DNA of 50,330 nucleotides from a virus: positions 1 to 50,330 of the IMG/VR virus record IMGVR_UViG_3300017727_000017; one strand, written 5' to 3'. This document shows positions 3-49,795 of the stretch, one piece after another. The notes beneath the pieces were generated by a model. The model did not search any database. It was given only the letters and a program-made list of their open reading frames with translations, and had not been told where the DNA came from. The translations under genes were made by a program, and so were the position numbers. The first letter of the stretch is position 1. The number at the start of each line of letters is the position of its first letter.

Positions 3-2219
3 GATGGTAAGTATATTACTGCAAGAAAAGCGGCAGGTCTTGAAGAAGGCGTAAGAGATAAAAAAGATTTCTTGGGTGCTATAGAGTATCTTGGTTATGA
101 TGATGAAGAGTTAGAAAATTTAAAAAATCCTTTTTTATCACAAGAAGAAAAAGAAGCTAACTATGAAAAAAAATTAGACGAACTTGAAAAAGAAGGTACT
201 GGAAATTACAGATTTATTAAGGGTTCCCGAGGCGAGGATAGATATTCGATGACACCTGAAGAATATAAATTATTAAGCGAAGAATATAAAGCAGCTAATG
301 AAGGTGGAGCTTTATCTTTAGCAATTGGTAAAACTGTTGCACAAGGGTTTGAAGACTTTAAAAAAGAAAAATTTGGAACTTCAAATACTACTTTTACAAG
401 TGATGAACATATACAAAACATGCGTGAAAGGTACAGACAAAAATTAGCCGAGTCATCCGGCCTTGAAAAACCAGGAGAAGACAGCAGAACAGATTTCTAC
501 GACAAAGTTTCAAGTGAATATGCAGGAGGAGGAGCAGACCAGTCTGTATTAAATTTAGAAAAACTAGCTCAAAGTAATGAAATAAAAAATTTACAAAAAG
601 AAATAGGTTTTGAAAACCTTTCTGAAAGAACTTCTAAAGAACAAAAGAAAAGTTTTATAAGAAGTATAAGTGATTTTGCTTCTAAGTATAAAGTACCTCT
701 TACGGTTGTAGCCGGTCTTGTAGGTGGACCAGGAGGAGCTCAGCTAGCAAAACAAGTTCTTGGAGCAAACGATATGGCTCGAATGGGAGTTGACGTAGTA
801 GGTGATGTAAGAAAAGGTGACCTTAAAGGGGCCGCTGAAACAGTTGCAGGCGCTGTTATAGGTAAAAATACAGTAGATAATGTAAAAGAAGGAACTAGGG
901 TAGTAAAAGAAAAAGATATTAAAGGTGGAGTAGCATTAGGAACTGATATAGCACTTGGGAAAGGTGCAGGTGATGTTGTAAGAAAAGTTTTAGGAACAGA
1001 AGGAAATCAAACAAATGAACAAACCGCTCAAACAAATGAACAAACTGTTCCAAAACAAGAAAATCAAAAGGTTGCTAAAAGAGAGCCAGAGCCAGAGTAT
1101 GATGGTAATATAGGATCTATTTTTAGCGACGGCGGTAGAGTAAACAAAGCATTAGGCGGACCAATTGATTTAGCGGCTAGAAAAAAACAATCGCAATTAG
1201 ATTTTTTAGCAAGACAACCAGATGCGCAACTTCCACAGGCACAACCACCTGCAGTTAATCCTCAACCACCTGCAGTTAATCCTCAACCACCCGCAGCTCC
1301 ACAACCTTTTGATATGTCTAAATATCAGGGTGGTACATTTTCAGGTGGTATAGAAGATTCAAGAAATATTGCTCTTGATCAATTAGCAGGTATGGGAGTT
1401 GATACTAGTAAGTATGCTAAAATGACAGCAACAGATACAAGCGGACCAAAGTTTCAGGGTCTTTCAATGAATGAAATTTTCGCAATGGATGAACAAACAG
1501 CTAGAGACACACTTGGTTTTGATCCATCTGATCCAGACGCTAGTCCTGAGTTTGAAGAATTTTTAAGAGTTAATGATCCAGGTCCTATGGCAATAGGTCC
1601 AGGAGGCCCTCCAGGGATGCAAACTGAATTTCTGAATCAAGACGAACTTTCACAAATTCTAAACAGAGCGATTCCAAACTATATGCAAAAAGCTCAAGAG
1701 ATTGGTGAAGACTATACTCTAGATGAAATGTTAGCAATGAGTGATGATGAGCTTGCAATGATAGAAGATAGATACGATAAAAAAATGGGTTATGGTACAT
1801 ATGCTAAGAGACCAGGTAATACTCAAACAGGATATGATCCAGACGCTATGCAACAGTATAATGATATGCAAAATTTTATGGGCGAAGTTGAAAGACAATC
1901 TAAAGCTGCACAAGGCGCACCGGGTAATACTCTTAATTATTCAACAGGCGGCAGGGTTGGTTTTTCATCTGGAAGTGAGAGAAAAAGAATTGATAGAAAT
2001 ATGCAAACTGATTATTCTAATCCTTTTAATAACTTAGCTAAAGTAAATCTATCGAGAGAAAAAGCATTTACCAATGCTCTTTTTAAGCGAAATAAAAAAT
2101 TAGTTGCAGATGAGAAAAAAAGGAAAAAAAATCTTACCATACTAAATGAAGATGCTAGGGCAAAAGCATTACAACGATTAAATTTATTAAAAAGATTATA
2201 CGCTAGCGGAAAAAGATAA
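3..2219 (+). CDS. Putative internal virion protein, 5'-truncated by window edge
   Basis: The frame is open from base 3, so the gene starts outside the window; 738 residues are visible. The TTG at 72 is only an internal codon. The protein is highly charged at its N-terminus. A Gly/Ala/Val-rich segment around residues 230-330 could be membrane-interacting. A proline-rich tandem repeat lies near residues 414-432, and a Met/Asp-rich C-terminal half follows. Two short GGRV motifs (near residues 378 and 649) recur in other virion genes here. The C-terminus is very Lys/Arg-rich. The stop overlaps the next start by 1 nt, so the two large genes are probably translated together. No enzymatic domain is recognised. 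The internal or ejection role is inferred from size, composition and resemblance to marine podovirus virion proteins. Confidence 0.6.
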   Translation, partial: DGKYITARKAAGLEEGVRDKKDFLGAIEYLGYDDEELENLKNPFLSQEEKEANYEKKLDELEKEGTGNYRFIKGSRGEDRYSMTPEEYKLLSEEYKAANEGGALSLAIGKTVAQGFEDFKKEKFGTSNTTFTSDEHIQNMRERYRQKLAESSGLEKPGEDSRTDFYDKVSSEYAGGGADQSVLNLEKLAQSNEIKNLQKEIGFENLSERTSKEQKKSFIRSISDFASKYKVPLTVVAGLVGGPGGAQLAKQVLGANDMARMGVDVVGDVRKGDLKGAAETVAGAVIGKNTVDNVKEGTRVVKEKDIKGGVALGTDIALGKGAGDVVRKVLGTEGNQTNEQTAQTNEQTVPKQENQKVAKREPEPEYDGNIGSIFSDGGRVNKALGGPIDLAARKKQSQLDFLARQPDAQLPQAQPPAVNPQPPAVNPQPPAAPQPFDMSKYQGGTFSGGIEDSRNIALDQLAGMGVDTSKYAKMTATDTSGPKFQGLSMNEIFAMDEQTARDTLGFDPSDPDASPEFEEFLRVNDPGPMAIGPGGPPGMQTEFLNQDELSQILNRAIPNYMQKAQEIGEDYTLDEMLAMSDDELAMIEDRYDKKMGYGTYAKRPGNTQTGYDPDAMQQYNDMQNFMGEVERQSKAAQGAPGNTLNYSTGGRVGFSSGSERKRIDRNMQTDYSNPFNNLAKVNLSREKAFTNALFKRNKKLVADEKKRKKNLTILNEDARAKALQRLNLLKRLYASGKR
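1242..1296 (+). repeat. 21-bp tandem repeat encoding PPAVNPQ units
   Basis: A 21-bp unit beginning caaccacctgcagtt occurs at 1242-1262 and 1263-1283, followed by a partial third copy to about 1296. The length is a multiple of three, so it encodes a repeated proline-rich heptapeptide linker within the first large virion gene. Such repeats can expand or contract by slippage. Confidence 0.85.
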
Positions 2220-5200
2220 TGTACAAACCAAGTGCAGCTACTCAACAAATGTTAGATTCTCTCACAGAGAAAAATCGTAAAGGTTTTGCAATAGGTGGCG
2301 GTAATTTTTACGGTAGTAATCTTGGTACTCGTGAAGGGTTTTCTAACTACACAGGTGCGAGAGGAGCAGCTAGAAAAAAAGGAACTACTATAAATAATTT
2401 ATTTAATGAAGACCCTACGTTAGAAAAAAATATATCAAAGGAATACGAAAAAGGATCTGGCGCAGATAGAATTATAAGAGATTTAAATTTAAAAAATAAA
2501 GTTAGTCCTAAAGCTCTTCAAGATTATATTAATGAAAAATTAAGTACTGGCAAATTTAAAATTAGAAAACCAAATAAAATACCGGATACTCTTAGACAAC
2601 CAGGAGAAGAATCTAGAAAATTTATGGACTACATAGAAAATATAATAAAACAAAATCCTAATAAAAAAAATATGTTTCAAAATTTAGAAGCTTCGGATGT
2701 AGTTAAAAATTCAGGTGCAAATATTAACACAGACAATGCAACTAGAATTTTAAGTAAGATATATAATTTAGCAACTAAAGGATCTAAACTTGAAAAATTT
2801 TATCCCAACATAGAAAAAAGAACAATTGAATTAATAGATAGTGGAATGGGTACTCCAGACATAACAAACACTTTGATAGAAGAAGGTTTAATTGAGAGAC
2901 AGATAGATACAAGTAATAAAACTAGTTATAGAGCTACAAAAAATTATTTTCAAAGATTAATTGATAGTAATAAAACAAAAATTAAAAAACTAACTGCACA
3001 GCCCGGAGATATAGTAGATATAACTACAAGAAATTATAGAGATGCTGCAATTAAAAATGTACTAGACAACCAATCTTCATCTATTACCTCCAATAGAATT
3101 TCTACAATTGTTAGCGAAGAACTTGGAGAAAAAGTATCTCCCGGATATGTTAAATCTTTTTTTAAAAGAAAAAATATAGATATTGATAAATATATTAAAA
3201 CAACTGCTCAAAGAATTTTCCCTGAAGTAAAAGCCTTAGATAAAATAGTTAAAAAAAATATAAAATATTTAACAGACCCCAATGCTACCTTTATTGATAA
3301 AGGACAATTTTTAAGTGACGAGTACACAAAAGTTATGGGAAAAAATAAAGCACAAACTATAACTGCTAACGAAGCTGGATTAAGACTTAAAAAATTGTTG
3401 GCAATCTATGCCGGAACAGATCAAAGATATAGTGCAGATTTATATAATCAAATAAAACCTTTAAAAAATTATACAAATCCTTTTATACAAAAAAATTTAA
3501 TAGGTCTTACTTCTAATTTATCTCGATCTTCAAATATAGATGTAGCAAAAATGCTTGGTTTACCAAAAAAAGATATAGAGCTTTTACAAAACTTACAAAA
3601 AGCGACATCACAACTTGGAAATTTTAAAATAGCTGGAGACCATACAGATATAAAAGCTATTATGAGTGATTTTCCTAAGTACAAAAAAAATTTTATGAAA
3701 ATCCAATATATATCTAATGATTTAAATACGTTTAAATCTACTTATGACAAAAAAATAATAGCATTATATAATTCTGCAAAAGCAGGAGCGGCTCCAGAAA
3801 CAATAATGCCTAAGTTAGAAGAAATACAAAATGATTTTAAAACCAAAACTGGATATGACATAGGAGGATTTTCATTTAAGAAAAATGGTAAAATAGCAAT
3901 CGATCCTCAAACAGCAGCTATTAATGAATACAGATATCCAATAAATGATAATGTTATAGAAACTATGGGTAACATAGAAGCTTATGAAAATAAAAAATAC
4001 ACAAATGTTTTAGATAAAGAAGTAATGGGGGCTAAAGGTTCTCCAAATAAAATAAAATCTATTTATGAAAAATACAAAGGTAATAAAAAAGTTATTAATA
4101 ATAGTAAATATGTAAAAGCATTAGATAATATTCCAAAATTAAAAGGATTTAAAAAAGCACTTTTGTATGGAGGAGCCGGTGCCGGTGTAATACTTACTAC
4201 AGCTGCTAACGCAGATACAAACGGTGATATGTTTATGCCCGTTGATCCAGGTGTAATTGTTCCTCAAAAAAAACCAAAGGAAGGAACTACCGAAGGTGGA
4301 TCTGCGGCTGCTGCGGGGAGTTCTGTTTTATTAGGTAAGTATGCAAAACCTTTTTTAAAAGGAATCCTTAAAACTGTGGCCTCATTACCAGCTGCAGGAA
4401 CTTTTGCTTACATGGATATAAAACAAGGAATGAATGAAGGACAAAGTTTTATTGATGCTGCAACAGACCCTACTGTTGGATTGGAATTATTATATCCAGA
4501 ACTTTTTAAAAATGCAGGTCCATTAATGGCAAGGGCTGCAAGACTTTCTACTCCTGTTGGAACTGGAATTACTGTAGGTGGTACTCTAAAAAACAGGGCT
4601 AAAGAAATGATGAAGCAAGCTGAAGGTATAACTTCATTAGATGAAGGAGAGGAACAAAGAAGATTGATAGAAGAGTATGCAGCAAAAAATTATAAAGGAT
4701 ACAATCAAGGTGGTAGAGTAAACTTTGCAGACGGACCAGAAGATCCTAAGAAAAGAAAGTTTATGAAGATCATGGGTGGGCTTGCATCCATACCTTTACT
4801 TGGAAGATTTATTGATATTGGAACAATTGCACAAAAAGCAGCTCCTGTAGTCGCCGAAACTGTAAAAAGTGTACCACCTTATTTTTTTAGATTAGTTGAA
4901 AAAATTAAATTTATGGGTGATGATGTAACAGACGTAGCTGCAACTAGTGATAGAGAAGTTGTTAAGTCGTATAAAGATTTTGAAATGAGAGAAAATATGT
5001 CAACAGGAGAAATTATAATTAGAAAAAGAAACGAGGGTGTATTCTATGATCAAGATGGTATAATATCAGATGAGTACATGACTTATAAACCCGGCACGGC
5101 AGATGAAGCTACTAAAATGAGAACCGTAGATGAGTATGAAGAGTTTACAGTAAGACCTGATGATGAAGGTAAATTAAGAGATTCTGAAGATGGATTGGAT

Positions 5201-5260
5201 AGCATAGATGAAATTTTAAAAGAAGCAGGGGATACTGATTCTATGACACTTAAAAATTAA
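2219..5260 (+). CDS. Putative large internal virion protein (1013 aa)
   Basis: The start codon shares one base with the preceding stop. The first two thirds are Lys/Asn/Ile-rich and look helical. Residues around 650-670 form a Gly/Ala hydrophobic stretch, and a second hydrophobic stretch lies near 715-740. Near residue 833 there is a GGRVNFADGPEDPK motif followed by a short hydrophobic helix. The same FADGPEDP motif, with identical DNA, is found in the gene at 28368. The C-terminal 100 residues are strongly acidic. No lytic transglycosylase or peptidase motif was seen. By size, position beside the portal gene and composition it is most likely an injected virion protein. This is inference; no catalytic domain supports it. 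Confidence 0.55.
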   Translation: MYKPSAATQQMLDSLTEKNRKGFAIGGGNFYGSNLGTREGFSNYTGARGAARKKGTTINNLFNEDPTLEKNISKEYEKGSGADRIIRDLNLKNKVSPKALQDYINEKLSTGKFKIRKPNKIPDTLRQPGEESRKFMDYIENIIKQNPNKKNMFQNLEASDVVKNSGANINTDNATRILSKIYNLATKGSKLEKFYPNIEKRTIELIDSGMGTPDITNTLIEEGLIERQIDTSNKTSYRATKNYFQRLIDSNKTKIKKLTAQPGDIVDITTRNYRDAAIKNVLDNQSSSITSNRISTIVSEELGEKVSPGYVKSFFKRKNIDIDKYIKTTAQRIFPEVKALDKIVKKNIKYLTDPNATFIDKGQFLSDEYTKVMGKNKAQTITANEAGLRLKKLLAIYAGTDQRYSADLYNQIKPLKNYTNPFIQKNLIGLTSNLSRSSNIDVAKMLGLPKKDIELLQNLQKATSQLGNFKIAGDHTDIKAIMSDFPKYKKNFMKIQYISNDLNTFKSTYDKKIIALYNSAKAGAAPETIMPKLEEIQNDFKTKTGYDIGGFSFKKNGKIAIDPQTAAINEYRYPINDNVIETMGNIEAYENKKYTNVLDKEVMGAKGSPNKIKSIYEKYKGNKKVINNSKYVKALDNIPKLKGFKKALLYGGAGAGVILTTAANADTNGDMFMPVDPGVIVPQKKPKEGTTEGGSAAAAGSSVLLGKYAKPFLKGILKTVASLPAAGTFAYMDIKQGMNEGQSFIDAATDPTVGLELLYPELFKNAGPLMARAARLSTPVGTGITVGGTLKNRAKEMMKQAEGITSLDEGEEQRRLIEEYAAKNYKGYNQGGRVNFADGPEDPKKRKFMKIMGGLASIPLLGRFIDIGTIAQKAAPVVAETVKSVPPYFFRLVEKIKFMGDDVTDVAATSDREVVKSYKDFEMRENMSTGEIIIRKRNEGVFYDQDGIISDEYMTYKPGTADEATKMRTVDEYEEFTVRPDDEGKLRDSEDGLDSIDEILKEAGDTDSMTLKN
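4724..4746 (+). repeat. 23-bp direct repeat, copy 1 (FADGPEDP coding)
   Basis: The 23 bases starting tttgcagacgg and ending gaagatcc are identical to 28476-28498, about 23.7 kb away. Both copies are in frame in different virion genes and encode FADGPEDP. The flanking DNA differs. Confidence 0.8.
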
Positions 5261-37595: not shown

Positions 37596-37625
37596 TGGGC
37601 GCTTAGGGGAGACTCAAGGCGCCCA
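37596..37625 (+). promoter_or_regulatory. Hairpin preceding the primase start
   Basis: TGGGCGC (37596-37602) and GCGCCCA (37619-37625) form a 7-bp perfect GC stem with a 16-base loop in otherwise AT-rich DNA. Its last base is the first base of an in-frame ATG, so it could occlude that start and favour the ATG at 37649. No T-run, so not a terminator. Confidence 0.5.
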
Positions 37626-37648
37626 TGCAACGACAGACAGGACAGGAC

Positions 37649-39205
37649 ATGACAGACGTATTAAAAAAATTTAAAAATATATTTGAAGGTTTAGACATAG
37701 CTCGTGGTGAAACCCGTAAGACAGGTGAGGTATCTGCAAAAGGTAAGAGTATTACTAGGTCTAAAACAATTACAGAACCACCTACAGATAAACTGTGGGA
37801 AGATCATTTAAAAGGTACAGAACCTGCATTAGGTATAATTCCAATAAGAAGAGACAATACTTGTATATGGGGATGTATTGACTGGGATGTATATCCTTTA
37901 GATCACAAAGAAATAGTAAATGATTTGAAAAAGAAAAAGATACCACTAACAGTATTTAGATCAAAGTCCGGTGGTGCACATTTATTTTTATTTACAAAAG
38001 AACCCGTCCCTGCAGTTATGATGAGAGATAAGTTAAAAACATATGCTTCAGCCATTGGTCATGCAAGAGCAGAGATATTTCCAAAACAAGAAAAGATAAA
38101 TATTGATCGTGGTGATGTAGGTAGTTTTTTAAACTTACCTTATCACAACTTAGAAAATACAGTTAGATATGCTTTCAATAATAATGGTGAACCAATATTA
38201 GATATTGAAAAGTTTTTTGAACATTATGAAAACCAAGTTTTAAGTGTAGATCAATTTAACAATTTAAAATTAAAAGAAACAGAAGAAGATGATTTTCTTG
38301 AAATGCCACCATGTTTGGTTACGCTTTTATCTGAAGGTGTTGGTGAAGGAATGAGAAATGAAACTATGTATAACGTAGGAGTGTATGTAAAGAAAAGATT
38401 TTCTGAAGACGATCTTTGGAAAAAGAAAATGAATCACTACAACATAAAATATTTTAAACCACCTATTAATGCATCAGAACTTGTTAAGACTCAAGAATCA
38501 TTAGAAAACAAAGATTATTTTTATAAATGTAAAGATGAACCTTTATCATCTTTTTGTAATTCGAAGCTATGTGTAACAAAAAAATATGGTGTAGGTGATG
38601 ATGATGCACCAGTACAAACTATAACTAATATTAGAAAGTACAACTCTGATCCACCATTATTTTTCTGTGACATCGATGGACAAACAGTGATGGTTGAAAC
38701 TTCAGTTCTTCACGACCCGGATAAATTTTCAATGGCATGCTTAGAACAAATTAATAGACCACAGATGCCTATGTCTAAAATTATATGGCGTAAGATGTTA
38801 ATAAAACTTTTACAGGAGAAACAAGATACAGATGAAAAAGCTACGGCAGACCTTAAAGTTGAAAATCAATTAAAAGAATACATGGAAGACTTTATAAATA
38901 AAGTTAAAGGTAAAGATATAAATGATATTCAAAGAGGTGTTGCGTATAGTGATGATAACTATAGTTATTTTAAAATGAAAGATTTTTGGAAACATTTAGT
39001 AAAAAATAAATGGCCAGATAAAAGATATCCAAAACATGTAGTAGTACAAAAACTACAAACTCAATTAAAGATTGAGGAGGATTATCCAAAAATAAACGGT
39101 AAAACAGTGCGTTGCTTTAAGATGTTAAAGATTGTATCTGTTGAGCCAGAGAAAGCAAAATATGAAAGTCAGGAACCATCATGGAAAAGAAAAATAGAAC
39201 AGTAA
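37649..39205 (+). CDS. Archaeo-eukaryotic primase, TOTE-type (518 aa)
   Basis: Makes primers for DNA synthesis. AEP signature: IDWD at 77-80 (metal-binding Asp78 and Asp80), RSKSGGAHLFLF at 104-115 (SxxxH-type motif with His111), and EIFPKQEKINIDRGDVGSF at 142-160, followed by LNLPYHN. This third block corresponds to the FPNQ...GNLI-LP pattern of the TOTE-conflict-type primase domain. The C-terminal 330 residues are charged, with CKDEPLSSFCNSKLC (three Cys at 306-320) as a possible zinc site. ATG at 37649 follows AGGAC; a start at 37625 is also possible. The last 25 bases overlap the helicase start. Confidence 0.8.
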   Translation: MTDVLKKFKNIFEGLDIARGETRKTGEVSAKGKSITRSKTITEPPTDKLWEDHLKGTEPALGIIPIRRDNTCIWGCIDWDVYPLDHKEIVNDLKKKKIPLTVFRSKSGGAHLFLFTKEPVPAVMMRDKLKTYASAIGHARAEIFPKQEKINIDRGDVGSFLNLPYHNLENTVRYAFNNNGEPILDIEKFFEHYENQVLSVDQFNNLKLKETEEDDFLEMPPCLVTLLSEGVGEGMRNETMYNVGVYVKKRFSEDDLWKKKMNHYNIKYFKPPINASELVKTQESLENKDYFYKCKDEPLSSFCNSKLCVTKKYGVGDDDAPVQTITNIRKYNSDPPLFFCDIDGQTVMVETSVLHDPDKFSMACLEQINRPQMPMSKIIWRKMLIKLLQEKQDTDEKATADLKVENQLKEYMEDFINKVKGKDINDIQRGVAYSDDNYSYFKMKDFWKHLVKNKWPDKRYPKHVVVQKLQTQLKIEEDYPKINGKTVRCFKMLKIVSVEPEKAKYESQEPSWKRKIEQ

Positions 39206-40725
39206 TACCTGGACCACCGGGAACCGGGAAAACATATAGATTATTAAATCATTATATGGCCAAAGAAATAAAAGAAAATAAAACTGATCCTAAAAAAATT
39301 TGTTACATTACTTTTAGTAAAGCAGCTGCAGAAGAAGCAACTGAAAGATTTGAAGAATTATTTCCTAAAGAAAAACTTGGATACATAGGCACTATGCATG
39401 CATTAGGGGTAAGAGAATTAAACATAGATGTAGGTGCAAAATTATTAAGAGGTAATAGTCAATGGAATCAATTTAAACTTTATGAGCCAATGGCGGCTAA
39501 ATTAAATACTGATATGAGTATTGATTCAATTACTGGTAAAACTAGATTTAAAGACCCTATACTAACTACAAGAGACTATGCAAAAAATAAAAAAATATCT
39601 TTGAATGAAGCTGCGATACAAAAAGGTATGGCGGGTTGGTCAGACATACACATCGCAGAAAAAATAGATGGTGCACTAACACAATATAAAAAAGACACAG
39701 GAGTCATAGAATTTTATGACATGATAGGTTTGTTTACGGATAAAATAAAAACTAAAGATAGTTTTTATGACGTTATATTTTTAGATGAAGCTCAAGACTT
39801 GAATGCACTACAGTGGGATATGTTTTTTGAATTAGAGAAACTAAGTAATAGGTCCTTCATTGCTGGTGATGATGATCAAACTATCTACGGTTTTCAAGGA
39901 GCAGATGCATCTACATTTATAAACCTAGAAGGAACTATAGATGAACAAGTAAAGTCGAGACGAGTACCGAGAAGCGTGCATCGAGTGGCTTTAAATATAT
40001 TAGATAGACTCAACGAACGTAGGACAAAGAATTGGGAAGCGAGAGACGAGGAAGGTGAAGTTAATTATGAAACATCACTAGAAAACATAGACTTTGCAAA
40101 AGGTAAGTGGATGATACTTGGTAGAACTAATAGACTTTGTGAGAAGGCAAGAGATCATTTGTATATGAAAGGTTTAAGATATGAATTTACAGGTGATAAA
40201 TATTTAGATAAAAATTCTATGCTAGCATTTACTACCTGGAAAAGATTAAATAATGGTGCAAGTATTGATTCAAAAGATGTCAAAGTAATGTATTCTTTTT
40301 TAAAAGTAAAACTAGGTCATATACAAAGAGGGTTTGCTAGTGGTAAAACTTTAGATTCTGTTTTTTCTGTGACGTTAGAAGAACTAAAGAAAGATCATGG
40401 TTTACTTGTTGAAGGTAGTTGGGAACATCTTGACTTTGATGAAGATACAAAAGTTTTCATGAAACATTTAATACAAAACAATTATGATCTTATGAAAGAA
40501 GCTGACATAAAGATAATGACCTTACATGGATCAAAGGGAAAAGAATGTGAAAACGTAGTTTTATTTACAGATTTTGGTGCGGATGAATATCAAAGTAATT
40601 TTATTGAAGGTGAGTTTGAAAAGTCACCAGACAATGAACATAGATTATTTTTTGTTGGAGTTACCAGAGCTAAACAAAAACTTTATTTACTACAATCAGA
40701 GGAGGGTACAGGGTATGTCATATAA
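39181..40725 (+). CDS. UvrD/Rep-like SF1 helicase (514 aa)
   Basis: Unwinds DNA for replication. Motif I GPPGTGKT at 11-18, motif Ia YITFSKAAAEEA at 42-53, motif Ic IGTMHALG at 69-76, motif II DEAQD at 202-206, motif III GDDDQTIYGFQGA at 229-241, motif IV-like region, motif V IMTLHGSKGKE near 445-455, and motif VI VTRAKQKLYLL near 494-504. All key residues are present. The length is shorter than UvrD (720 aa) because accessory domains are reduced, usual for phage forms. Overlap with primase by 25 nt and position before PolA suggest a replication complex. Confidence 0.9.
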   Translation: MEKKNRTVIPGPPGTGKTYRLLNHYMAKEIKENKTDPKKICYITFSKAAAEEATERFEELFPKEKLGYIGTMHALGVRELNIDVGAKLLRGNSQWNQFKLYEPMAAKLNTDMSIDSITGKTRFKDPILTTRDYAKNKKISLNEAAIQKGMAGWSDIHIAEKIDGALTQYKKDTGVIEFYDMIGLFTDKIKTKDSFYDVIFLDEAQDLNALQWDMFFELEKLSNRSFIAGDDDQTIYGFQGADASTFINLEGTIDEQVKSRRVPRSVHRVALNILDRLNERRTKNWEARDEEGEVNYETSLENIDFAKGKWMILGRTNRLCEKARDHLYMKGLRYEFTGDKYLDKNSMLAFTTWKRLNNGASIDSKDVKVMYSFLKVKLGHIQRGFASGKTLDSVFSVTLEELKKDHGLLVEGSWEHLDFDEDTKVFMKHLIQNNYDLMKEADIKIMTLHGSKGKECENVVLFTDFGADEYQSNFIEGEFEKSPDNEHRLFFVGVTRAKQKLYLLQSEEGTGYVI

Positions 40726-40936
40726 ATCATTAGACAAACAAGTTCAGGGAAATCACTATCAAGATTTCAAGATTCAACCTGCAGAGTTTGTAAATCAAAA
40801 TAAACTCTTGTTTGCTGAGGGAAATGCTATAAAATATATTTGTAGGCATTCTAAGAAAGGTAAACATTACGACATTAAAAAGGCAATACATTATTTAGAA
40901 ATGATTCTAGAAAGGGATTATGGAGAATTTATTTAA
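40715..40936 (+). CDS. DUF3310-type small phage protein (73 aa)
   Basis: The true start is ATG at 40715, with AGAGGAGG just upstream; longer open frames are shadows. The motif QGNHYQDFKIQPAEFVNQN, then AIKYICRHSKKGKHYDIKKA and HYLEMILERDY, defines DUF3310, sometimes called a nucleotide kinase-like or SaV-like protein. There is no P-loop. It overlaps the helicase end by 11 nt and the polymerase start by 17 nt. DUF3310 proteins commonly sit beside phage DNA replication genes; their function is not known. Confidence 0.8.
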   Translation: MSYKSLDKQVQGNHYQDFKIQPAEFVNQNKLLFAEGNAIKYICRHSKKGKHYDIKKAIHYLEMILERDYGEFI

Positions 40937-42794
40937 CGAAGAGATGTGGAATTCACCGGATGAGTTTAAAGATTTAAGTAGTTATAAATACATAGCAATT
41001 GACTTAGAAACAAGAGATCCAAACCTAAAGAAAATGGGTTCAGGTTCTGTAAGAGGTGATGGAGAAATAATTGGAGTAGCTGTTGCAGTAGATGGTTGGT
41101 CTGGATACTATTCTTTTGGTCATGAGCAAGGTAATTTTTTTGCAAAAGAATCTGTAATGAAATGGGTAAAAAGTATTTGTGCATTACCTTGTCCTAAAAT
41201 ATTTCATAATGCAATGTATGACGTATGTTGGTTAAGAGCATATGGTGTAAAGATAAATGGAATCATTGTAGATACAATGATGATGGCAGCTGTATTAGAT
41301 GAAAACAGATTGTATTACTCATTGAATTCATTATCTTTTATAGAGCTAGGTAAAGTTAAAAATGAAAAAGCCTTACAAGATGCAGCAGACAAAGCTGGCA
41401 TAGATGCAAAGTCTGAAATGTATAAGCTTCCCGCATCAATGGTTGGAGCATATGCTGAAGCAGATGCTGAACTAACCTTACAACTATTTAAAAAATTTTC
41501 AGGGCAAATAAGAGATCAAAACTTACAGAGGATATTTAACTTGGAGACAAGTTTATTTCCTATGTTGGTAGATATGAAATTTAAGGGCGTTCGAGTAGAC
41601 GTCGATAAAGCGCTTCGACTGAAACATGTGCTAGAGAAAAGAGAAGGGCTATGCCTTGCAAAAGTGAAACAAGTAACAGGAGTAGAAGTACAAATATGGG
41701 CAGCAAGATCGATCGCCAAAGTATTTGACAACCTTGGACTACCTTATTCCAGAACTGCAAAAAGTAACGCACCATCATTTACAAAAGCTACACTAGAAAA
41801 CCATGAAAATCCAGTGGTAAAAAACATTGCAGAAGCTAGGGAATTAAACAAAGCACATACAACATTTATAGATACAATATTAAAACATGAACACAATGGA
41901 CGTATTCATGCTGACATAAATCAGTTAAGATCAGATGCAGGTGGAACTGTAACCGGGCGTTTCTCATATTCTAATCCAAACTTACAACAAATACCTGCAA
42001 GAAACAATTTATTAGGTCCTGCAATTCGTGGACTATTTATACCAGAGCAGGGCTGTGATTGGGGTTGTTTTGATTACTCACAACAAGAACCTAGATTAGT
42101 TTTACACTATGCAGCAGAACATCCTATCTTAAAAAATTCTGAGTCTGTAACTGAAATGGTTTCTAAGTTTAATAGAGACCCCAAAATGGACTTTCATGGA
42201 ATGGTAGCTAAACTTGCAAACATAAAAAGAAAAGAAGCTAAGACTATTAACTTAGGTTTGTTTTATGGAATGGGTAAAGCAAAACTTCAACAGTCTTTGG
42301 ATTTAGAAAACAAAGAAGATGCTGATAAACTTTTTAATAATTATCACGACAGTGTACCTTTTGTAAAAGGTTTGATGGACGCTACAATGAGAGACTCACA
42401 AAGAGACGGAGAGATTCAAACAATTGCAGGTAGAGTATGTAGATTTGATAAATGGGAAGAGGCAAGGTTTGCTCCAGGTGAGTTGAGAGCACCTATGACT
42501 TATGAAGAAGCTAAGGGAAAATATGGTGAAGATAGAATTAGAAGAGCCTATACATACAAAGCTTTAAATAAATTAATACAGGGTTCTGCGGCAGATATGA
42601 CCAAACAAGCTATGCTAGATTTATATAACGAAGGTATTACACCGCATATACAAGTACACGATGAACTTGATATATCTGTTGAATCAGAGCATCAGGCTCA
42701 AAAAATCATTGCAATTATGCAAGATGCAGTTAAACTTTCTGTCAAAAATAAAGTTGATTATGAAAAAGGTCCTACTTGGGGCGATGTAAAATGA
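40920..42794 (+). CDS. polA: DNA polymerase I (family A) with 3'-5' exonuclease
   Basis: Replicative polymerase of the phage. Exonuclease domain: IAIDLETRDP with Asp28 and Glu30, FHNAMYDVCWL with Asp101, and YAEAD with Tyr178 and Asp182. Polymerase motif A FDYSQQEPRL (Asp385), motif B RKEAKTINLGLFYGM (Lys441, Tyr449), motif C HDEL at 580-583. No 5'-3' exonuclease domain. In motif B the residue at the E. coli Phe762 position is Leu445, a substitution that has been linked in viral PolA surveys with altered fidelity or speed and a slower or temperate lifestyle. Length 624 aa is typical for viral PolA. Confidence 0.95.
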   Translation: MENLFNEEMWNSPDEFKDLSSYKYIAIDLETRDPNLKKMGSGSVRGDGEIIGVAVAVDGWSGYYSFGHEQGNFFAKESVMKWVKSICALPCPKIFHNAMYDVCWLRAYGVKINGIIVDTMMMAAVLDENRLYYSLNSLSFIELGKVKNEKALQDAADKAGIDAKSEMYKLPASMVGAYAEADAELTLQLFKKFSGQIRDQNLQRIFNLETSLFPMLVDMKFKGVRVDVDKALRLKHVLEKREGLCLAKVKQVTGVEVQIWAARSIAKVFDNLGLPYSRTAKSNAPSFTKATLENHENPVVKNIAEARELNKAHTTFIDTILKHEHNGRIHADINQLRSDAGGTVTGRFSYSNPNLQQIPARNNLLGPAIRGLFIPEQGCDWGCFDYSQQEPRLVLHYAAEHPILKNSESVTEMVSKFNRDPKMDFHGMVAKLANIKRKEAKTINLGLFYGMGKAKLQQSLDLENKEDADKLFNNYHDSVPFVKGLMDATMRDSQRDGEIQTIAGRVCRFDKWEEARFAPGELRAPMTYEEAKGKYGEDRIRRAYTYKALNKLIQGSAADMTKQAMLDLYNEGITPHIQVHDELDISVESEHQAQKIIAIMQDAVKLSVKNKVDYEKGPTWGDVK

Positions 42795-47687: not shown

Positions 47688-47896
47688 TGCCTAGGAAATG
47701 TTATGTTAAAAAAGAAATAAAGATAAGCAAACATAAATTTTTACTAGAAATTTATTATGCTTTAGAAGGACATAAAGATGTTTGTTGGGAAGTATTTCCA
47801 TTTGATAACCAGGCGTCTTTGTATGCTTTTGAAAATAAACACAAAATAGAAAAAATAGTAGAAAGAAAACATTTGTATGAATCTAAAGTGGAATAA
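47687..47896 (+). CDS. Small hypothetical protein (69 aa)
   Basis: ATG shares one base with the previous stop. The product is an alpha/beta type with MPRKCYVKKEIKISKHKF, then CWEVFPFDNQASLYAFENK. No TM. It overlaps the nuclease start by 20 nt. Family not recognised. Confidence 0.55.
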   Translation: MPRKCYVKKEIKISKHKFLLEIYYALEGHKDVCWEVFPFDNQASLYAFENKHKIEKIVERKHLYESKVE

Positions 47897-48596
47897 AAAA
47901 TTTATCTACCCTACGTCAACAAGATCACTGTTAAATGATGAGAGAGTCTATGACGTATCTCAAGAAAAGTTACCAAGTGTTACAACCATACTATCAGCTA
48001 CTCAGCCTCAAGATAAGCTAGACTCTATCGCGAAATGGAAAGCTAGGGTTGGAGACGTTGAAGCGGATAAAATTAAGAATACTGCAGCTAATAGAGGAAC
48101 TATCATGCATAGCATTTTAGAGGGTTATATAATTGAAAAAGAGGTCCTAGATATGACTGAGGCGGGCGTACAAGCTCATTCGATGGCTAAAACGATCATC
48201 GATAAGGGTTTGCCTGATTTAGAGGAGATATGGGGCTCTGAGGTGGTAGTAAGCTATCCTGGACTGTATGCCGGTGCAACTGATCTAGTTGGAGTTTATA
48301 TGGGACGTGATAGTATAATAGACTTCAAGCAATCGAACAAGCCCAAACGTATCGAGTGGATAACTGATTATAAGTTGCAGATGGTGGCTTATGCGATGGC
48401 CCACAACTACGTTCACGGCTCTGAGATCGAGCAAGGAGTTATATTGATGTGTACTCCTGATAATTTTTTTCAACGATTCATAATCAATGGCTCCGAGTTT
48501 CGAGCACTTAGTCACGAGTGGCTGGCCCGAGTCGATGCTTATTACAAGGTTCGAGCAGCTAGGAGCGAGAGTCGAGAAACGGGGAAAAATGAGTAA
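47877..48596 (+). CDS. PD-(D/E)XK nuclease, RecB/Cas4-like (239 aa)
   Basis: A single-domain exonuclease. Motifs: LPSVTTILSATQP near 32-44, RGTIMHSILEGYI at 73-85 (His78), GATDLVG at 133-139 (Asp136), IIDFKQ at 147-152 (Asp149, Lys151), and YKLQMVAYAMA at 165-175 (Gln168, the QxxxY-type motif). All catalytic residues of RecB-family nucleases are present. Length and order fit phage recombination/host-DNA degradation exonucleases. The GC content of its 3' half is visibly higher than in neighbouring genes. The putative origin region follows directly. Confidence 0.85.
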   Translation: MNLKWNKKFIYPTSTRSLLNDERVYDVSQEKLPSVTTILSATQPQDKLDSIAKWKARVGDVEADKIKNTAANRGTIMHSILEGYIIEKEVLDMTEAGVQAHSMAKTIIDKGLPDLEEIWGSEVVVSYPGLYAGATDLVGVYMGRDSIIDFKQSNKPKRIEWITDYKLQMVAYAMAHNYVHGSEIEQGVILMCTPDNFFQRFIINGSEFRALSHEWLARVDAYYKVRAARSESRETGKNE

Positions 48597-48604
48597 AATT
48601 AATT

Positions 48605-48864
48605 TGTGGAACTTTTGTGGAAACGACGAAAATTTTGTGGAAAAACGTTTTTACTTTAGAATGATTCTAAACTTTTGTTACATTCTGACGCAGATTTTAG
48701 CCATTTTCCACATTTTCCACATTTTTTTTCGACGAAATGTGGAAGATTTTGTGGAACTTTTATTCAATGATTTCAGCTACTTAAGGGTTGTTTTTATGAT
48801 TTCCACATTTTCCACAGCGTTTCAGAAATATTTTCAGAATTTTTATATTTATATATATTTATAT
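48605..48864. other. Putative replication origin: DnaA-box-like cluster and AT-rich run
   Basis: Nine TGTGGAA/TTCCACA elements occur in about 210 bp. Forward sites lie at 48605, 48616, 48636, 48738 and 48750. Reverse sites lie at 48706, 48715, 48801 and 48810 (core starts). Four extend to full TTTTCCACA or its complement: 48636-48644, 48704-48712, 48713-48721 and 48808-48816. This matches the cyanobacterial DnaA-box consensus and is one base from E. coli TTATCCACA. A 27-bp run of only A/T (48838-48864) lies beside the cluster as a possible unwinding element. An open frame across it has no credible protein features. The role is inferred from sequence only. Confidence 0.6.
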
Positions 48865-48889
48865 CTTATAGAGTGGAAAGGAGTCAGCT

Positions 48890-49216
48890 ATGAATAAAAA
48901 ATCAAAAAATAAAAATAAAAAAACAATTCCGTTGAATTTAAAGTCATTGGGTAACAATATATTAGACTACCCTTTTGTAGAAATAGAGTGGTTGGATATC
49001 GAGGGGGACGCCGGTTGGAGTACCACAAAAGATTTGAATAAAGAAAAATTACCTACATGTGTTTCCAAAGGATACTTAGTCAGTCAAAAAAACGGAGTGA
49101 CTAGAATATTTACTGACTATATTAAATCAAAAGAAAAACCTACATTTGACAGTATTGGTAATACTACTATTATCCCAACCTCTGTAATTAAATCTATTAA
49201 AAAAATATTATTGTAA
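48890..49216 (+). CDS. Conserved marine phage protein (108 aa)
   Basis: AAAGGAGT precedes ATG. After a Lys-rich start, the region VEIEWLDIEGDAGWSTTKD, CVSKGYLVSQKNGVTRIFTDY and IIPTSVIKSIKKIL forms a pattern I recognise from many cyanophage and pelagiphage small proteins with no known function. It is compact alpha/beta with one Cys. Its stop overlaps the convergent terminase small subunit gene by 9 nt. Confidence 0.65.
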   Translation: MNKKSKNKNKKTIPLNLKSLGNNILDYPFVEIEWLDIEGDAGWSTTKDLNKEKLPTCVSKGYLVSQKNGVTRIFTDYIKSKEKPTFDSIGNTTIIPTSVIKSIKKILL

Positions 49217-49795
49217 TGAAGGTTCTGGCTCTTCTGGAATGGGTTCTTCAAGTAACTCTTGCTCTGTTTCTTCTATGGTTTCTATTTCATCTTCCGGCTC
49301 TGATGATAGCTCTATTTGCGGTTGTTCTTCTGTAGATTGACCCTCGATTATTTTTGAATGATCATCAACCATTTTTTCTAATTTAGACATTAACTGATCT
49401 CTATCAAGATCATCAATCTTACCTGTCTTAATCATTTTTCTATCAATGTAATATCCGGCAACTTTCCCTCTGGCTACTTCCATGTTACCCGCTGCAGAAT
49501 ATGCTCCCTTCTTCAACGCTTGGTCACGTATTTTTGCAAGCTGCTCAAGGTGTCTGTCCATAGTAACTTCGTACTTCTTCCTGGCTTCCTCACGCAGATC
49601 ACCAATGTACTGAACTACAAGAGGGTATAATTTAGGATTAGTTAGTTTTGAAGAGGCGACTCTCGCTGCAAGATCAGATGTTGGGCCGTAGCCGGCTTCC
49701 TTCGCACACTCCCAAGCATCTCTGCTTCCGTCGTTGTACACAATAAGCTCAGCGAATTTTTTCTGTTTCTCTGTTAATCTTTTAGTTAATCCCAT
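49208..49795 (-). CDS. terS: Terminase small subunit (195 aa)
   Basis: Recognises phage DNA and recruits the large terminase for packaging. N-terminus LTEKQKKFAELIVYNDGSRD, then AWECAKEAGYGPTSDLAARVASSKLTN split across 28-54, fits the Terminase_2 small-subunit family with its helix-turn-helix DNA-binding domain. A helical central oligomerisation domain and a long acidic C-terminal tail (about 150-195) follow. Unusually it is on the minus strand, opposite to all structural genes. The large subunit is not in the window. Start at 49795 is a clear ATG; the 38-bp spacer to 49834 is divergent. Confidence 0.8.
   Translation of the reverse strand: MGLTKRLTEKQKKFAELIVYNDGSRDAWECAKEAGYGPTSDLAARVASSKLTNPKLYPLVVQYIGDLREEARKKYEVTMDRHLEQLAKIRDQALKKGAYSAAGNMEVARGKVAGYYIDRKMIKTGKIDDLDRDQLMSKLEKMVDDHSKIIEGQSTEEQPQIELSSEPEDEIETIEETEQELLEEPIPEEPEPSLQ

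Follow-up and report, generated by a model that had tools for sequence, protein, structure and literature searches.

In the plasmid ColE2-P9, a single protein, Rep, is both initiator and primase, and the plasmid carries two iterons (PMC4980987). In the PolpTN2 and PrimQH families, an archaeo-eukaryotic-type primase (AEP) domain is accompanied by a middle domain and by a C-terminal winged helix that has been proposed to read the origin (PMC5862659). Lambdoid phages encode an initiator, O, that acts on iterons beside an A/T-rich region (PMC7466680), an arrangement like the one that we propose here. In P4, the alpha protein is a primase that acts at origin repeats (PMC4234260); we propose the same, from sequence, for the AEP-type primase of an uncultured phage, whose gene lies ∼10 kb from an array of short repeats. 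The phage is represented by an IMG/VR viral record of 50,330 bp, the whole of which we analyzed and refer to as the window; no end repeats were found in these 50,330 bp.

The phage and its replication genes

Judging from its portal and replication genes and from its gene order, the window phage is related to the HTVC023P-type pelagiphages. Its portal protein shares 67% identity with that of pelagiphage HTVC027P and 61% with that of phage 023Pt_psg01, and HTVC027P has the same order of primase, UvrD-type helicase, polymerase A, peptidase, exonuclease, gap, small gene and terminase small subunit (terS). SAR11 infection is known only for relatives, the window record being uncultured, and on its sequence a SAR11 host is likely for the window phage as well.

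The primase gene (37625–39205, plus strand) matches phrog_21866 (E 6e-88) and is accompanied by genes for a UvrD-like helicase (39181–40725, plus strand; PF00580, E 1.5e-32), a candidate partner, and for a family A DNA polymerase (40920–42794, plus strand; PF00476, E 5.5e-59). The sequence-only reading had remarked that primase, helicase and polymerase are present without a visible initiator, and indeed no separate initiator was recognised among the genes. Between close relatives, the primase and UvrD helicase genes (37625–40725) are often far more divergent than their neighbours; for instance, relatives G010 and G032 share 65% identity in the primase and 64% in the helicase, but 89–92% in the neighbours, as if the pair were exchanged or were evolving fast together. 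Ahead of the portal gene, 72–5260 contains two long open frames, of 715 and 1013 aa, with no match in PHROGs and no significant match in Pfam. Scans of the window for Rfam families and tRNAs gave no matches.

The array lies in a gap of 293 bp (48597–48889), within which, as had been claimed, there is no credible gene. The left border of this slot is an exonuclease gene (47877–48596, plus strand; phrog_298, E 1.7e-44) and the right border is the gene for a small conserved protein (48890–49216, plus strand; phrog_25889), which is followed by terS (49208–49795, minus strand; phrog_51, E 3e-13). Alleles of the small protein can be quite different even where relatives are otherwise close; in G005 and G014, it is only 34% identical beside a TerS that is 95% identical.

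A nine-copy array of TGTGGAA

A scan of the window sequence found nine exact copies of TGTGGAA or TTCCACA within 212 bp (48605–48816), and just three more copies of TGTGGAA in the other 50 kb (at 1231, 12409 and 40945). As a control for chance, we shuffled the window 30 times under a first-order Markov model, and the maximum in an equal span was 2 copies of TGTGGAA and 5 copies of any 7-mer; the runner-up 7-mer cluster in the real window also has 5 copies. Chance is excluded as the source of the nine-copy array. The copies form two modules, each with a direct pair or triplet that faces an inverted pair over a spacer of 45–65 bp. In module 1, the three direct copies of TGTGGAA (iterons 1–3, 48605–48642, plus strand; starts at 48605, 48616 and 48636), which are kept in close relatives, face two inverted copies, TTCCACA (iterons 4–5, 48706–48721, minus strand; starts at 48706 and 48715). 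Module 2 begins with two copies of TGTGGAA (iterons 6–7, 48738–48756, plus strand; starts at 48738 and 48750), facing two of TTCCACA (iterons 8–9, 48801–48816, minus strand; starts at 48801 and 48810). The cluster and its order (+++--++--) are as the sequence-only reading described them, and its count of full TTTTCCACA sites (TGTGGAAAA) is also correct, at four of the nine copies. The array thus has the features of an iteron array, that is, several copies of a short word that is specific to the phage and lies in noncoding DNA.

Two further features were read in the slot. The spacer of module 1 holds the palindrome TTTAGAATGATTCTAAA (48655–48671, no strand assigned), and a run of 27 bp made up of A and T only (48838–48864, no strand assigned) follows the array; this is, as reported, the longest such run in the window and is a candidate either for an unwinding region or for the promoter of the next gene. 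The run is weak evidence alone, because a second A/T-only run, of 26 bp, sits inside the primase gene. GC skew climbs through the window except for dips over minus-strand genes, and because the dips track those genes the skew is uninformative about an origin.

The position of the array is conserved, but its word is not

We collected relatives by their similarity to the exonuclease and the small protein. An array with a score of at least 15 occupies the equivalent slot in 185 of 235 non-redundant relatives (79%), while 0 shuffled slots, and 0 of 178 stretches of the same length taken upstream of the exonuclease gene, reached this score; about a fifth of the 235 slots hold no detectable array. 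In close relatives (exonuclease identity of 95% or more), the array is unchanged or nearly so, with eight or nine sites retained, and the absence from close relatives that had been named in advance as a reason to abandon a DnaA-recruiting origin is therefore not the case.

In distant relatives, the slot holds other words, among them TGTAGAA, TTTGTAAC, TTGACAG, GGTAGTA, TGTGGTG, TGGCACA (the word of 023Pt_psg01), AAAGTTGG and AAAGTCGG. The arrays yielded 73 different top words, some of which are shifted forms of one motif. The word differs between phages and the copies inside one phage agree; in the related pair G021 and G042, AAAGTTGG has become AAAGTCG in all four listed copies. Most words, when aligned by hand, fit a common scaffold of NGT plus four variable bases, and TGT or ACA occurs within the word in 84% of array records compared to 20% of background. 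Word switching combined with agreement within each phage is the behaviour expected of an iteron array whose phage-encoded binder changes specificity.

This result bears directly on the proposal of the sequence-only reading that the array is an origin to which host DnaA is recruited to start replication. The four TTTTCCACA sites do fit the general DnaA box, TTWTNCACA, but the words TTTGTAAC, TTGACAG, GGTAGTA, TGGCACA and AAAGTTGG that relatives carry in the slot are not DnaA boxes, and across 270 sites in 32 distinct TGTGGAA arrays, A occupies bases 8 and 9, those needed to complete the 9-mer, at only 63% and 52% of sites. A host factor with a single fixed box would not switch words in this way, and on the strength of word switching we rejected host DnaA as the binder; covariation of the word with a phage protein (see below) also argues against it. 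In SAR11 genomes, TTWTNCACA is in slight excess over a reversed control and its matches are unclustered; we sought SAR11 oriC sequences for a comparison of DnaA boxes and found none, so these genomes gave no host box to set against the array. We consider recruitment of DnaA highly improbable. The origin half of the proposal, in contrast, is well supported, though indirectly, and the alternative offered alongside it, iterons for an unnamed phage initiator, is the better reading, with the primase as the best candidate since the word covaries with the primase.

The word covaries with a C-terminal domain of the primase

We compared word distance with protein distance, controlling for overall divergence, in 48 phages that carry 20 words. 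The C-terminal segment of the primase ranked first among 20 protein segments (partial r = 0.275, permutation P = 0.001, with words aligned by hand and permutations that handle the shared ancestry of relatives only in part). Within the primase, only this segment correlates with the word given the rest of the protein (r = 0.230, P = 0.0005); the correlation persists when the discovery records are left out (r = 0.247, P = 0.0005), and the signal of the domain holds in six multiple regressions (P = 0.002 in each). No such covariation was seen for the products of the genes beside the array (partial r of −0.12 for the exonuclease, −0.06 for the small protein and −0.13 for TerS), and the value for PolA is 0.03. 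On these grounds, we rejected the exonuclease and the small protein (48890–49216) as binders.

Weaker covariation was also observed for F10 and for an SNF2-like helicase. Either might be the protein that reads an iteron origin, with the primase domain hitchhiking, given a partial r of 0.17 for F10 (P = 0.003) and P = 0.010 for the helicase in one regression of 16 records. However, the primase domain is the strongest in every joint regression, and its signal is confined to a domain that resembles DNA-binding domains, which hitchhiking would not produce; we regard a binder other than the primase as improbable.

The values for TerS also weigh against a role of the array in packaging, in which the repeats would be pac or cos sites for the small terminase subunit. 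Although the array lies <400 bp from terS, TerS does not covary with the word, and a distinct array beyond terS, whose word is stable, is the better candidate; of the readings that we weighed, packaging is the least probable. This second array, which has a CAAGC/GCTTG core, is found 0–2.2 kb beyond terS in relatives, and its word, unlike that of the iterons, is constant. The core occurs 18.7 times per 2.2-kb region compared to 2.5 expected (171 regions). Examples are found in G044 (record 4997), G016 (record 9397) and HTVC027P (locus L202:15488), and the window ends before it would reach such an array. The CAAGC array is a candidate recognition site for the terminase.

The covariation is clearest in pairs of phages whose nearly identical primases diverge chiefly in this domain and which carry different words. 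The primases of G031 (word TGTAGAA) and G010 (word TTTGTAAC) are 91% identical outside the C-terminal domain, 78% inside it and 64% in its putative recognition helix. Similarly, those of G011 (word TTGACAG) and G046 (word TGTAGAA, taken from G025, which overlaps G046 over 4,558 identical bases) are 92% identical outside the domain, 66% inside and 57% in the putative recognition helix. There are exceptions in both directions: in G010 and G032, different helices go with the same word, and in G021 and G042, a nearly identical helix goes with different words. At one helix position, Q appears to go with base G and E or D with base A, which is suggestive of a possible residue–base code.

The covarying domain is predicted to be a winged helix

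The primase contains an AEP catalytic domain, based on its Pfam match (PF22548, AEP-TOTE, the sole match in that search) and on its CAPP Prim-Pol fold. The AlphaFold model of the whole protein has a mean pLDDT of 81, and its N-terminal part matches the folds of CAPP Prim-Pol (E 5e-10) and the RepB′ primase. Modelled alone, the C-terminal domain (residues 405–507; 38837–39145, plus strand) has a pLDDT of 88 and a pTM of 0.79, and its secondary-structure elements run helix, helix, strand, helix, helix, strand, strand. It is thus predicted to be a winged helix; the models and the word covariation together make it the proposed iteron-binding domain, with a putative recognition helix, also from the models, at residues 468–481 (39026–39067, plus strand). 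In structure searches of the PDB, the winged helix had weak, non-significant matches, of which the best was TcpK bound to oriT DNA (E 0.1), and in a viral library it matched the primase of a Dinoroseobacter phage (E 1.5e-5). A sequence search of the PDB with the primase returned nothing significant.

Spacer cores and similar arrays in phages of gammaproteobacteria

In many relatives (for example, G005, G018, G031 and L201), a core, CTAGAANCNTTGGTAT, lies between the facing iterons, whatever the word. It is exact in 17 of 189 arrays and has one mismatch in 20 more, compared to a shuffle mean of 4.7 mismatches, and it is possibly an unwinding site or the site of a second factor. The best match to CTAGAANCNTTGGTAT in the window has 5 mismatches, which is no better than shuffles, and we dropped the idea that the window shares this core. 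The window palindrome TTTAGAATGATTCTAAA likewise has no match above chance to the relatives' core.

Arrays are also found with more distant primases. Salmonella phage PMBT28, Providencia phage Kokobel2 and Acinetobacter phage JeffCo encode primases 31–32% identical to that of the window, and directly upstream of the primase gene they have repeats of CGTTCCA, GGTTCCA and GTTACC, respectively, all of which fit the NGT scaffold. In PMBT28 and Kokobel2, a spacer separates three direct copies from two inverted ones. DSL-LC04 has no clear matching array. In PMBT28 (L647 43644–43901) and Kokobel2 (L646 14182–14299), the phage's own word recurs in a second array that lies far away from the primase gene; this array is followed by a strong promoter-like sequence and could be a second origin or a regulatory site.

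The main rival to an origin is an operator array, through which the primase or another phage protein would regulate downstream genes, with a role in replication optional. In the window, as in its relatives, the array does have a gene downstream, and in PMBT28 and Kokobel2 an array precedes the promoter-like sequence. In the window, however, promoter-like matches are no better than those in shuffles; quite different alleles of the small downstream gene replace one another beside an array that persists; and the identity of the covarying protein, a primase, points towards replication. We therefore consider an operator unlikely, although it is less so than the other alternatives.

A primase as the proposed reader of a candidate origin

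We think it probable, at roughly three chances in four, that the array is an iteron origin bound by the phage's AEP-type primase through its C-terminal winged helix. Based on the sites and the covariation, we infer that replication starts at the array in the following order. Primase molecules would bind the TGTGGAA sites, and their binding would open either the spacer or the A/T run next to the array; entry of the UvrD-type helicase would follow, and the primase would lay the first primers for polymerase A. Such a phage would need neither host DnaA nor a separate initiator.

With somewhat less assurance, though still on balance, we favour a broader interpretation, in which a stand-alone AEP primase serves as the origin-recognition protein in a widespread system. 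A winged helix whose specificity changes often would have given relatives in a single phage group dozens of words on the NGT scaffold, and this diversity may bar co-infecting phages from each other's origins. The analysis names a candidate origin and a candidate initiator and tabulates primase helices against DNA words; such origin words could help to link fragmented viral contigs to a primase type.

Comparison with known systems

The proposed system appears analogous to P4 alpha and ColE2 Rep and a member of neither family. The primase of P4 belongs to the bacterial Toprim type, while that of the window is of the AEP type and is thus not in the P4 alpha family. The P4 primase is fused to its helicase, whereas the window phage has a separate, UvrD-like helicase. 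The winged-helix origin-binding domain at the C-terminus of P4 alpha may have a counterpart in the predicted winged helix of the window primase, whose PDB matches are weak. ColE2-P9 has two iterons, but the phage arrays have 4–9 or more sites in facing modules, and we found no match between ColE2 Rep and the window primase in searches of PHROGs, Pfam and the PDB. The lambdoid initiator O, by contrast, is no primase; its origin is inside the O gene, and its iterons are nearly constant between the phages compared.

Closer to the window, HTVC027P shares the portal, the replication genes and the gene order and has its own repeats in the slot, around TTACAA, TGTGACAA and TTTCAC (seen by eye, the automatic search having found no word). 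HTVC023P shares the portal and replication genes, but its array, of ACTAGGAAAA, is located upstream of terS instead. A text search of a genome survey of the HTVC023P group found no mention of iterons or of a replication origin (PMC9599517). For the PolpTN2 and PrimQH families, origin reading was proposed from domain prediction, whereas here it is proposed from sites and covariation, and our coevolution data support the earlier suggestion that the C-terminal winged helices of AEP primases read origins (PMC5862659). Relative to the open-access literature, what is new here is the identification of the sites, the evidence from covariation and the extent of word switching within an abundant group of marine phages.
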